64,000 bases of DNA from a virus. The stretch's first letter is position 1; each line of letters begins with the position of its first letter. The notes under the pieces are model-generated. The model worked only from the letters and a program-made list of their open reading frames with translations, was not told where the DNA came from and ran no database searches. The position numbers and the translations under genes are program-made. This document shows, piece by piece, positions 31,700 through 34,890 of the stretch. Location: IMG/VR virus record IMGVR_UViG_3300014325_000011, positions 51,126 through 115,125 of that record. One strand, given 5' to 3'.

Positions 31700-31981
31700 T
31701 CAGTTCCGGGCCTGCTCGGCTATCTCACGCCAGCGTCGGGCGTTCTCGGCAAGGGCGGCTGTCAGTGCATCCCGCAGCCGGGCGGCGTCCTGTTCGGACA
31801 GCTCGACGTACACCTCTGGGTCGGCGGCGGTATCCACGGTGGCGATCCGCACCGCATAGCCGGACGGTTCCGCGGCTGGGTGCATCCCGGTGCGGGCCAC
31901 GTCGAGTTCGCGGCCGTCACAGTCGCGGATCGGCTCTGGCAGGTCGAGGGAACTCCAGATGCTCACAGCGGCCTCCGCCAA
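31700..31981 (-). CDS. Small protein between terminase and portal
   Basis: The 93-residue acidic protein (MAEAAVSIWSSLDLPEPIRD..., YVELSEQDAARLRDALTAAL) ends in a helix and overlaps the terminase end by 19 bp. The LSEQDAARLRDALTAAL part resembles small regulatory or adaptor helices seen in actinobacterial proteins. Function unknown. Confidence 0.7.
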   Translation of the reverse strand: MAEAAVSIWSSLDLPEPIRDCDGRELDVARTGMHPAAEPSGYAVRIATVDTAADPEVYVELSEQDAARLRDALTAALAENARRWREIAEQARN

Positions 31982-34421
31982 CCCTCCTGTGAGGTCTGGC
32001 CGGGGAACAGGTCGTCGATGCCCAACGGGGCTGGTGTCTCGTCGGGCGGAAGCTGGGGCTGTGACCCGGCGGCGTCCTCTTTGGCGAAGACGTGGTTCAT
32101 GTAGAACTGCATCCCACCGATGTCGGCAAGATCAGTTATCGCCCAGACGCAGTTGTGGACCAGCACACCGTTCGCCACGAACTCGTGGACGTCGGCGACC
32201 TGTAGGTCATACACGTCCCGCAGCTCGGGCTCGGCGTAGAGCTGCACCACACGTCCGGCCGCAGGTCTCGGGCTTGACCCGGTACTTGTTCTGCCAGAAC
32301 TCTGTTCCGCAGAGAGGACACGGCACGCGGACCTTGTAGGTGTTGGCGTCTCGGTGATCTTTTTCGATGCACTGTTTCGAGCAGTGCTTGGCTCCCCGGG
32401 GGTTGCGGCTGAGGAACTTCGTGCCGCAAGTGACACAGGTGTACTCGACGTGCTCACGGTCTTCCCAAGTCCGGGCGCCGTGTTCCCGGTGCCACGCTCG
32501 CCCCTCGTCGCTTCGGTGCCACTCGGAAGCCAAATGCCGGACATCGGCGAGATGAGCCTGTTGTCTTGGCCCTCGGTTCCGCTCCAAGACCTCGTCGGCG
32601 TGTTCGGCGAAGTGCTCCGGCGGACTGAGCGCGACAAGGTTCGAGGGGTCGTTGTTGAACGGGTCGTCGTCCTTGTGGTGGACGTGGTAGCCGTCGGGAA
32701 TTGGACCGTGATGGCGCTTGTAGATCTCACGGTGGTACTGCTCAAGGCCGGAGCCACGAGGAGGCGAGTAGTAGACCCGGTTGGCGCGCTGCCGGCCTTT
32801 CGGGTTCCGGGTATAACGCACGCCGTCGAGGTAGACGGAGATAGGCGATTCCATACCACGATTGTATCTGCCCAAACCAGAGAATCGAGACGAGCCCATC
32901 CGCGATTCTCGGTCCAGACAAGGTGATCGGGAGTACCCGTAATCCGTCGCCCGTCAGCCGTAACTGCGGTCATCACCCGGGCTTCGCGGCGCGTACAGCG
33001 CGTCGCTTCGACCAGACGCCATCCCGCGCGGGTCCACACCAGTTCGCCCGGCTGGACATCTTCAATCGGGACGTCACCCCGACGCGCGAGAACCGTGGTA
33101 CCCGCGATCAGGCAGGCGTCGAGCCTGTTCGGCGACCAGTCCGCGTCCGGCGTCCACGAGATCATCTCGTCCTCAAGGTCAGGTAGCCCGCCGACATGGT
33201 GCGCCCGGCCCTGCTCGTAGATCGCCGAGATCGGTTCGGCGCGGATCTTCTTACCGCGGCTGGCCGTGACCTTCGTGTAAGCCACGTTGTGATCCACATG
33301 GCGGATCGTCGACTCGACCATGTCCGCCCCGAAGTTGACCTCGGCGACGATCCTGTCCGCCTTGTACCGGTGGTAGGCGTCGACCGCGGCCCGAGCCCAA
33401 CCATCCGGGCTCGCCTTCAACGTCAGGTCTTCCAACACCCAGAAGTGCTCCTGCGCGTCGACACCGGCTACGACGATGCCCGTGTGGTCCGACTCGTCGT
33501 TGGCCGTACCTGCCGGGTCGATCGCGACCACGATCCGGACCAGAGTGGGTAGGTCTGTGAGCGCACGACGGTGCTCGTCGATGTTGCCCCGGGTCCACAG
33601 GGCGCCCGGGTTGTCGTCCAGGTATTCGCCGTACAGCTCCTGGCGGCCAAGACGGGTGCCCTCGTAGCGCTTGCGCAGTTCCGACAGGGCGGCAGCGGAC
33701 AGGTTCGCCGCGTTGTCGAATGTCGAGCCGCGGGTGACGACTACCGAGCCGTCATCGCGGCCCATCCAGTCCTTGAGCAGGATCGATGGCTTCGGTGTGG
33801 TCGTGACGATGACCTGCGGGCGGCCGATGCGTAGCGCCGGGGCTAGGCCCTCAGTCCAGGACGCGCGGGCGTAACGCCACTTGGCAATTTCATCGAACCA
33901 ACCGCCGGACAGGTTCAGGCCACGGCCTACGTCGGCGTCATCCGCACCCAGCATGTGGATGATCTGGCCTGTGCTCAGCCTGATCTGCCAGAGCGACCGG
34001 TTATACACGTAGTCGACGTGGCGGTTGTTGAGCACGGTGCGAACACCGGCCGGACCTTCGACGCAGACCAGCCGAGCGTCGGAGAACGTTTCGGCGACGA
34101 TCGCCCATTCGGTGGGAGAGCCGTCGGGAGCGGTTGGGGTGTCGAGGACGCGCTGAACCAGCGTCTCGGCACCCGTTCGACTTTTCCCCAACCACGTCCC
34201 GCCAGGATCAGCCAGACGAGCCAGTCGCCGTCAGGTGCCCGCTGGGCGGTCCGTGCATGCTTCCACGTAAACGTGCCGTGGGGTTCGCCGTCACAGTCGT
34301 CGAGGCCGCACGCCCACGGCTTGTCTGCCGTAACGGTGACGGCTTCGAGTTGCTGGCGCAGTTCGAGCTCCCGCCGAAGGAGGGCGAGGCGTCGTTCAGC
34401 TAGGGTCGCCGGTTTCGGCAA
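31963..34421 (-). CDS. Terminase large subunit (needs -1 frameshift; contains intein)
   Basis: The ATPase-nuclease motor is split over two frames. The first (likely TTG start at 34421, MPKPATLAERRLALLRRELE) ends ...LILAGRGWGK; the second continues SRTGAETLVQ. Only the -1 join at 34182-34188 gives the Walker A motif GRGWGKS. Walker B is LSGGWFDEIA; nuclease acidic residues are in VVAIDPAGTAND and VAEVNFGADMVE. The chain is interrupted by an intein at residue about 437, between NRLDA and CVWAITDL, close to the last nuclease motif. Removing the intein gives a normal-length protein. Terminase cuts and packages DNA at the portal. Confidence 0.85.
32152..33114 (-). other. Intein in large terminase (321 residues)
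   Basis: Splicing blocks are recognisable: block A CLIAGTTVLARRGDVPIEDV starting at Cys1; block B ITGTPDHLVWT; and block F/G VYDLQVADVHEFVANGV, then LVHN followed by Cys+1 of the C-extein (CVWAITDL). The Hint halves are about 90 residues (N) and 35 residues (C). Between them the frame is open but reads as a Ser/Thr/Arg low-complexity sequence, because this segment holds an HNH gene in another frame. The insertion point lies in the nuclease domain, a conserved site as usual for inteins. Confidence 0.85.
32207..32854 (-). CDS. HNH homing-type endonuclease nested out of frame in the intein
   Basis: The frame gives 215 residues from ATG 32854 (MESPISVYLDGVRYTRNPKG) and lies -1 to the intein frame. 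The HNH core is HREIYKRHHG, YHVHHKDDDPFNNDPSNLVA, LSPPEHFAEH, followed by Cys clusters (YTCVTCGTKFLS, HCSKQC, CPLCGTEFWQNKY, CGRTCG). It ends at its own TGA, about 34 nt into the intein C-block coding region. Homing endonucleases of inteins are normally fused in frame; here it appears to be a separate overlapping gene. No strong ribosome-binding site is seen, so expression is uncertain. Confidence 0.8.
   Translation of the reverse strand: MESPISVYLDGVRYTRNPKGRQRANRVYYSPPRGSGLEQYHREIYKRHHGPIPDGYHVHHKDDDPFNNDPSNLVALSPPEHFAEHADEVLERNRGPRQQAHLADVRHLASEWHRSDEGRAWHREHGARTWEDREHVEYTCVTCGTKFLSRNPRGAKHCSKQCIEKDHRDANTYKVRVPCPLCGTEFWQNKYRVKPETCGRTCGAALRRARAAGRV
34182..34188 (-). other. Slippery heptamer GGGAAAA inside Walker A codons
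   Basis: Read in the first frame as TGG-GGA-AAA-GTC, the run G-GGA-AAA is a classical X-XXY-YYZ -1 slip site: both tRNAs can re-pair on GGG and AAA. The shift lands exactly on AGT-CGA-ACG and restores GRGWGKSRTG. One missing G in the run, from mutation or sequencing, would look the same. Confidence 0.6.
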
Positions 34422-34890
34422 GGTCGCGGTGGACAAGGCGGCGCTCCAACTCGGCGATCTCCGCTTCGATCTGGCCGACGGTTCGGACCTCAACCTTGGT
34501 CGGGGCGTCAAGGCCGAGGAGCTTCGCCCGACGGTCTTGGATCTTCAACAGCCGGTCGATGGCGGCGAGGATGGGTGCGTCGTCTTCCAACGGTTTGCCG
34601 TCGTGCCAGATGACGCCGTCTTTCTGGACGGTGTAGTGCTTGGCTTCGAGTACCTGCATGCCGGCCTGGTAAAGCCGGTCGAGGCGTTCGAGTTCGAGGG
34701 CGCGTAGTTCGTCGGCGGTTTCGCGGACGTCGGCGGCGATGATCCGCTGGACGGCGCGGTAGGCGACGCCGCGGTTCGGGTAGCGGAGTTCGGTGGCGAT
34801 CTGCTCGTAGGTCTTGCCTGCGATCCGCATGCGGGCGGCGTCGGCGTCCCGGGCGGCGGTGGCAGGGTTGTTGCGGGCGCGGGGCGGCAT
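34396..34890 (-). CDS. Terminase small subunit
   Basis: The 164-residue protein begins with a basic helix and a helix-turn-helix (ADAARMRIAGKTYEQIATEL, NRGVAYRAVQRIIAADVRET), then a coiled-coil oligomerisation region and a C-terminal segment (EVRTVGQIEAEIAELERRLV) that contacts the large subunit. It recognises the packaging site. It lies just upstream of, and overlapping, the large terminase. A palindrome immediately upstream may regulate this late operon. Confidence 0.85.
   Translation of the reverse strand: MPPRARNNPATAARDADAARMRIAGKTYEQIATELRYPNRGVAYRAVQRIIAADVRETADELRALELERLDRLYQAGMQVLEAKHYTVQKDGVIWHDGKPLEDDAPILAAIDRLLKIQDRRAKLLGLDAPTKVEVRTVGQIEAEIAELERRLVHRDLAETGDPS

Follow-up and report, generated by a model that had tools for sequence, protein, structure and literature searches.

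The large terminase (TerL) gene of a virus genome raises the question of whether an intein can carry its homing endonuclease as a gene of its own, nested in a second reading frame. In canonical large inteins, the endonuclease domain is fused in the frame of the intein. The locus lies in a stretch of 64,000 nucleotides, here called the window, which corresponds to positions 51126-115125 of the 115,125-bp virus record IMGVR_UViG_3300014325_000011. We read it, with a probability of about 0.86, as a mini-intein that carries a homing endonuclease as a separate overlapping gene. The element is like a homing intein, yet it fails the defining in-frame fusion; by sequence criteria, it is real, conserved, and functional, with the HNH protein most likely translated separately.

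On the minus strand, the TerL frame is free of stops from 34191 to 31963 (ORF 31963-34191) and runs through an N-terminal Hint half, about 190 nonsense-like codons, and a C-terminal Hint half (Table 1). The intein has the residues of a class 1 Hint domain, namely C1, TPDH (block B), and a terminal His-Asn before Cys, and C1, T61, and H64 are invariant across 26 aligned inteins. It also passes by profile and by fold, with both Hint halves recognized in one frame by Pfam and by AlphaFold/Foldseek; the Pfam profile Intein_splicing (PF14890) has a cut-off of 35.8 bits and scores 41.6 on the TerL ORF. A split intein would have its Hint halves on separate ORFs, a criterion that is unmet in the window, where a single ORF holds both.

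Table 1. Features of the interrupted terminase gene and of the gene nested in it (window positions).
Feature	Position	Strand	Remarks
TerL N-extein	33115..34191	minus	ends with SPNRLDA; Terminase_6N E 3.8e-15, Terminase_6C E 1.1e-12
Intein, 321 codons	32152..33114	minus	in TerL at SPNRLDA^CVWAITDL; PF14890 41.6 bits
Hint-N half, intein residues 1-91	32842..33114	minus	C1 and TPDH (block B); pLDDT 90-97
Host-frame linker, intein residues 92-278, shadow of the HNH gene	32281..32841	minus	stop-free; pLDDT < 50
Hint-C half, intein residues 279-321	32152..32280	minus	His-Asn end, then Cys+1; pLDDT 88-96 over 281-321
TerL C-extein	31966..32151	minus	starts at Cys+1 (CVWAITDLADIGG)
GGGGAAAA at the TerL Walker A motif	34182..34189	minus	-1 frame step; outside the intein
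Nested HNH endonuclease gene, 215 aa	32207..32854	minus	ATG to stop, +2 (= -1) frame relative to TerL

The HNH ORF has its stop at 32207 and its likely start at the ATG at 32854. A further ATG stands at 32899, and the ORF read from there matches HNH_3 (PF13392) with 50.8 bits against a cut-off of 24.8 and the HNH family PHROG 15471 with an E value of 8.8e-29. The protein contains the HNH motif and two cysteine clusters that resemble zinc ribbons, although binding of metal by these cysteines is inferred. Between 32207 and 32280 the DNA is coding in both frames, for the end of HNH and for Hint-C. The gene is +2 to the host frame with no in-frame fusion, so the element does not qualify as a canonical endonuclease-bearing intein. 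A first-pass annotation of this DNA had described a 321-residue insert whose splicing blocks are intact and in frame with each other, an HNH gene one frame back that ends at its own stop, and a host frame that stays open across the HNH region, and the analysis bears out each of these descriptions, with frame and coordinates correct; a -1 step elsewhere in TerL goes unmentioned in that annotation. At the Walker A motif of TerL, outside the intein, the upstream part of the protein lies in another frame than that of the N-extein in Table 1; GGGGAAAA, with its -1 step, is identical in two related records without the intein (L144 and L145).

For the host frame (alignment of 23 rows), AlphaFold assigns pLDDT values, in ten-residue blocks, of about 90-97 over residues 1-90 and of 88-96 over residues 281-321; they fall below 50 over residues 92-278, and the pTM is 0.44. 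The prediction is thus one of a Hint domain whose two parts enclose 187 disordered linker residues, and in Foldseek the model resembles solved mini-inteins. Judging from the alignment of inteins, the richness of this linker in Ser, Thr, and Arg is the shadow of the HNH codons. The 215-aa form of HNH (17 rows) is modelled with a mean pLDDT of 91.9; the arrangement of its domains is unsure because the pTM is just 0.51. Foldseek returned no match to this model below an E value of 0.001, and the matches in the PDB, I-HmuI among them, are weak.

The same layout recurs in relatives. A set of 137 other HNH-bearing loci (L002-L138) comprises 3 viral contigs, 5 named-phage loci, 80 viral loci, and 49 loci from bacterial or archaeal genomes, the 80 viral loci being the best 80 of at least 554 found by HNH alignment. 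A locus is termed nested when Hint-N and Hint-C lie in one ORF with HNH in the +2 frame, so that the frame is required by definition. Nesting is found in 80 of the 137 (81 with the window, and with HNH at host +2 in all 81): the three contigs from the HNH-protein search, each with a terminase-like ORF, intact Hint ends, and a +2 HNH; three of the five named-phage loci; 62 of the best 80 viral loci; and 12 of the 49 genome loci. A scan of the loci without restriction on frame detected none whose Hint halves share an ORF while HNH occupies the third frame. The three named phages, Tetrasphaera phage TJE1, Acinetobacter phage Highwayman, and Rhodobacteraceae phage LS06-2018-MD07, make the layout testable, and their records label the whole ORF just as terminase, an annotation that hides it.

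The splicing residues are well kept in this family. C1 was scored in 76 and TxxH in 77 of the 81 nested loci, and Asn stands before Cys or Ser in all 81 (76 found by script and the other 5 by eye from that output). The missed scores of L050, L073, and L077 reflect truncated or partial Hint-N matches, L075 and L076 start with Cys despite the missed score, and L062 is truly without TxxH. In all 81, a stretch of 8-71 nt is shared by the HNH ORF and the Hint-C match, which makes the final HNH codons and Hint-C dual-coded. The set was found through HNH, a search that favours the nested layout. In a tblastn search with one Hint-N against named phages, which gave 41 records, ten of the other 37 (besides TJE1, Highwayman, and MD07) were examined and none is nested, all being short, in-frame, or split, so the nested share among related Hint domains must lie below the HNH-based estimate.

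Among 76 of the 81 nested N-exteins (five short or missing ones omitted), Pfam finds Terminase_6N in 48 and Terminase_3 in 47, two counts that overlap to an unreported extent and for which no union figure is available. By eye, most nested insertions are at the nuclease motif of TerL, before the Cys of a C-D-x-x-R-Y-like sequence; that of L137 is in the ATPase region. Apart from the window, 142 loci were classed, of which 80 are nested, 15 split or frame-shifted, 4 with one Hint half, 3 in-frame, 1 weakly nested, and 39 without a detectable Hint. Thirteen split loci were placed by eye at the same TerL motif, for example that of Lactobacillus phage CL2, where the annotated terminase ends in Hint-N and is followed by HNH and then by an unannotated Hint-C ORF; L143 is also split. 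L093 was placed among the split loci, but its sister is the nested L086, and it resembles a nested copy with a frameshift. Related HNH genes for which no Hint could be detected are found close to terL in Pseudomonas phages PAE1 and FBPa53, Sphaerotilus phage SN1, Exiguobacterium phage vB_EauM-23, and Acinetobacter phage BP10. A tree of 123 HNH proteins from the 142 loci and the window (20 matches shorter than 150 residues, including the three in-frame ones, were excluded) is poorly resolved, with 19 of 114 inner branches starred. Nested loci are scattered in it, and 12 of the 15 split loci fall in one 23-row set that also holds free ones; for these reasons, no direction of change is inferred.

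Alleles without the intein are available for comparison. The viral contigs L144 and L145, which are identical to each other here, encode nearly the same TerL (99% protein identity in the N-extein) with an empty site, SPNRVDA^LVWAMTDL. The window's insertion is thus exact and is matched by an intact uninserted allele, and the records establish that natural terL alleles occur both with and without the intein. The +1 residue is Leu in L144 and L145 and Cys in the window, where it fits the requirement of splicing. The DNA of the window differs from that of the empty site by 0-1% far upstream and by 23% and 13% in the two 100-bp flanks of the insertion point, but the window/L145 pair is a mosaic that differs by 4.5-13.5% elsewhere in the wider region. 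Co-conversion at the window insertion was accordingly rejected as a demonstrated event, the divergence of the flanks not being clearly above this mosaic background. Because similar divergence occurs elsewhere, co-conversion and homing in the lineage of the window are compatible with the data but not proven, and whether the intein was gained or lost between the window and L144/L145 is undetermined.

These alleles bear on the possibility that HNH is a nuclease acting alongside TerL in packaging, as in HK97; a role of the HK97 HNH in packaging is mentioned in PMC10448857. HNH would then not be a homing enzyme, and the intein would just house it, an idea that accords with the related HNH genes that are free-standing near terL in the five phage records named above. 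The near relatives L144 and L145, however, which have no intein, gave no HNH match in their records (which may be incomplete), and the more distant terminases L146 and L147 are likewise without the intein. We regard a packaging role in place of homing as unlikely.

The open host frame needs to be weighed against chance. When the HNH gene of the window is recoded synonymously with the codon usage of the N-extein, the host frame remains stop-free in about 10% of trials; the open frame of the window is by itself therefore weak evidence, and chance cannot be rejected for the window alone (P about 0.10). It is rejected for the family, since the layout is kept in 80 other loci and is for that reason more than chance. 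The term nested itself implies an open frame, and the test therefore spans all Hint-flanked HNH loci, split ones included. Of these, 81 of 96 are open in the host frame against 2.8 expected by chance, and clustering at 70% identity leaves 68 of 82 against 2.3 (the null uses N-extein codon usage where the N-extein is long enough and otherwise that of the HNH gene). Recoding of the N-extein type over the 81 nested loci predicts 362 host-frame stops, and none is observed; the third frame of the same loci contains 1462 stops against 1272 expected.

A stricter null, based on the codon usage of each HNH gene itself, was applied to the 81 nested loci and to 48 others, with 14 loci excluded for a match under 420 nt. 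For the nested loci it predicts 216 stops and 5.9 open loci, against 0 and 81 observed. Under the same null, the split HNH genes (n = 15) have 93 stops with 92 expected, the HNH genes without a detectable Hint (n = 28) have 122 with 134 expected, and the loci with one Hint half (n = 4) have 10 with 15 expected. The host frame is also stop-free in 6 of the 48 other loci, namely L053 (weakly nested), L093, L103, L107, L109, and L125. Dozens of natural, long, same-strand overlapping genes are thus at hand, and they come with an internal control because free and split HNH relatives carry host-frame stops about as often as chance predicts. On these counts and alignments, the existence of both frames, their conservation, and the stop-free state of the host frame may be taken as demonstrated.

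Substitutions at HNH codon positions 1, 2, and 3 number 1162, 909, and 2114 in 28 homologue pairs with a DNA difference of at least 3% (members are shared among pairs), and in all 28 pairs conservation is lower for the host-frame protein than for the HNH protein. Together with the stops, these data indicate that HNH is maintained as a protein and that the host frame is mainly kept readable; the homologue pairs provide clear evidence of purifying selection on the HNH frame. They also speak against the view that the HNH frame of the window is a relic, left by a formerly free-standing gene that is decaying inside a mini-intein. That view draws what support it has from the weak Shine-Dalgarno-like signal of the window and from the lack of a close intein-bearing relative with which selection on the window copy could be measured, the closest relative of its HNH among the loci compared being, at 49%, too distant. 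Yet the columns invariant in 21 aligned HNH proteins, which include the His, Asn, and Cys, are all intact in the window, and the predicted HNH fold is confident, so that decay appears very unlikely.

How HNH would be translated can be approached from the region around the end of Hint-N. A start codon is present from -10 to +30 nt of this point in 76 of the 81 nested loci (64 ATG, 7 GTG, and 5 TTG), compared with 30% (10% ATG) of 2234 same-frame upstream intervals; five loci have none at the expected place. Pairing with the anti-Shine-Dalgarno sequence has a mean energy of -5.95 kcal/mol there, whereas 259 control codons average -3.80 (p = 1e-7), in a test whose loci are not all independent, some being near-duplicates. 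Start codons with Shine-Dalgarno-like signals are in this way documented for the family as a whole. The signal of the window itself is weak (-3.5 kcal/mol), and internal initiation in the window phage is an inference.

HNH could alternatively be made as a fusion to Hint-N through programmed -1 frameshifting, with no internal initiation. Its frame is -1 to the host, which is the common direction of bacterial ribosomal slips, but in-phase X_XXY_YYZ heptamers are found in the overlap zone at just 6 of the 81 loci, no more than in the two remaining phases, each with 8 occurrences. Moreover, 76 of the 81 have an HNH-frame stop less than 120 nt before the end of Hint-N, or after it. Programmed frameshifting into the HNH frame was ruled out for want of slippery-heptamer enrichment, and a fusion made by this route retains at best a slender chance. 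Given the enrichment of start codons and Shine-Dalgarno-like signals near the end of Hint-N and the lack of enrichment of heptamers, internal initiation is the better reading.

Sequencing or assembly error, with an indel at each junction masking an ordinary in-frame HNH intein, is scarcely credible and is ruled out by homologues, for although a frame discontinuity is present also at the Walker A motif, the same +2 relation recurs in 80 other loci (68 clusters at 70% identity including the window), named phages included, and the HNH ORF runs into Hint-C in all 81. Compensating errors at the junctions, or homologues with an ordinary in-frame fusion, had been named at the outset as what would refute the layout. 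This was checked, and it stands: nested homologues range from 31 to 64% in the GC content of HNH (about 40% in L003 and L004), and only three of 137 loci (L126, L131, and L132) look in-frame, all of them distant and weak.

The mini-intein with a separate overlapping endonuclease gene would work as follows. Ribosomes that translate TerL would read through the intein in the host frame and yield a precursor, whose two Hint halves would fold together around some 187 disordered linker residues, join the TerL parts by splicing, and release the intein. Other ribosomes would initiate within the same mRNA at the ATG at 32854, at the end of Hint-N and in the -1 frame, and make a free HNH nuclease of 215 aa whose stop lies inside the DNA coding for Hint-C. 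This nuclease may then cut intein-less terL alleles at the nuclease motif, and repair would copy intein and HNH together. Splicing, cleavage by HNH, and homing are all inferred, as no expression, splicing, or cleavage data exist. The first-pass annotation had offered two overlapping products or a tolerated out-of-frame linker as alternatives; the available evidence favours both together, with expression again inferred.

A wider scenario can be put forward only tentatively, as we would not give it even odds. Out-of-frame nesting may be the standard architecture of a large and ancient intein family at the nuclease site of terminases, founded when a free, terL-cutting HNH gene entered a mini-intein in the one frame that is still kept. 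Both frames would have been maintained since then, with dual-coded ends, and loss of the open frame would have given rise to the split (fractured) terminases at the same site. If this is true, the nested layout is the missing link among free-standing homing genes, inteins, and naturally split inteins. The main reading, for its part, offers a testable route between these three states, and under it the splicing and homing parts of an intein would be decoupled at the level of translation, so that each could be made in its own amount.

Several known systems share part of this design. Group I introns with HNH genes likewise encode the endonuclease in an ORF of its own within an element that is removed by splicing, but in the window the host frame is open and Hint residues are present. 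A search of 31900-34600 against Rfam with E values up to 1 gave no match, group I introns included, and an RNA intron is ruled out by this absence.

Fractured genes, reportedly described by Dassa et al. in 2009, are split inteins whose two halves are separated by an endonuclease gene. The homing gene is separate from the Hint halves in both arrangements; in the window, however, both halves belong to a single uninterrupted ORF, so that splicing in cis is to be expected.

The claim that no intein of this layout had been described holds in part. Full-text literature searches turned up no Hint intein whose HNH is out of frame, although the preprint 10.1101/2025.01.02.630785 may contain one; an out-of-frame HNH in an insert that lacks splicing domains, on the other hand, is already published. 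Arsenault, Gosselin and Gogarten 2025 (PMC11855218) describe the ShiLan domain and the Pacc40 insertion in phage methylases, with a disjunct distribution and an out-of-frame HNH for which they propose translation from a start codon of its own; they detected no splicing domain, and in their view the insert remains in the protein. The window likewise combines an out-of-frame HNH with a host frame that stays open across the insert, but a complete Hint domain flanks its HNH, and the host is a terminase. One more methylase with such an insertion is mentioned in PMC12613952. The preprint named above, by Gosselin et al. on actinobacteriophage inteins of 'non-canonical architecture', is cited for overlapping reading frames in actinobacteriophages in PMC11855218. 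It may describe inteins with an unusual endonuclease layout and may overlap with the present finding; its scope, as far as the title indicates, is actinobacteriophages, whereas several of the loci compared here belong to phages or genomes with other hosts. The mycobacteriophage TerL inteins of Kelley et al. 2016 (PMC5050341) are located in the ATPase domain, and cleavage is shown for two that have an identifiable endonuclease domain. A TerL host and a Hint splicing domain are common to these inteins and to the window, but the intein of the window sits at the nuclease motif and has its endonuclease in a different frame.

The reading frame of the large terminase (TerL) in the window steps by -1 at GGGGAAAA, within the Walker A motif, where the heptamer is G_GGA_AAA. 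The same bases are present at the step in L144 and L145, two viral contigs with nearly the same TerL and an empty intein site, and no differences from the window were found over the 329 nt up to the site. In the more distant intein-less terminases L146 and L147, TerL lies in a single frame and is read through at the corresponding stretch. Besides the TerL containing the step, no second match to Terminase_6N was found in the virus record, and RNA folding downstream of the step was not better than that of shuffled sequences. The step may be either a programmed slip or a real lesion.

Coordinates of the features discussed (window unless stated)
Feature	Position	Strand
TerL N-terminal part, ORF	34511-33975	minus
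TerL remainder after the -1 step, ORF	from 34191	minus
TerL -1 step	34182-34189	minus
terL-portal interval, ~262 bp	31704-31965	
93-aa ORF	31700-31981	
Portal-like ORF of contig L002	L002:2444-5275	

The interval between terL and the portal gene, most of which is made up by the 93-aa ORF, is missing from the intein-less relative L145/L162.

In L002, a viral contig with the nested layout, an ORF judged portal-like by eye adjoins terL. It seems to hold a second intein-like insert, in frame and starting CLDDQTDCLTRDGWKRQ, and therefore the nested and in-frame layouts may sit side by side in this contig. The nested layout also occurs in Beijerinckia mobilis (L137), but at a different terminase position, judged by eye to be close to the ATPase-domain Walker B motif.

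In Campylobacter phage vB_CjeM_WX1 (L150), Hint halves separated by two small ORFs split ribonucleotide reductase alpha, and no match to the HNH family of the window was found in that locus. The annotated large terminases of Lactobacillus phage CL2 (L143), Brochothrix phage BL3 (L155), and Vibrio phage 1.245.O (L142) end in or near a Hint-N half, for which the match in the Vibrio phage is weak; the Hint-C half and TerL tail lie on a separate or unannotated ORF. An HNH or HNH remnant, matched over just ~72 aa in BL3, lies between the two halves in these phages.
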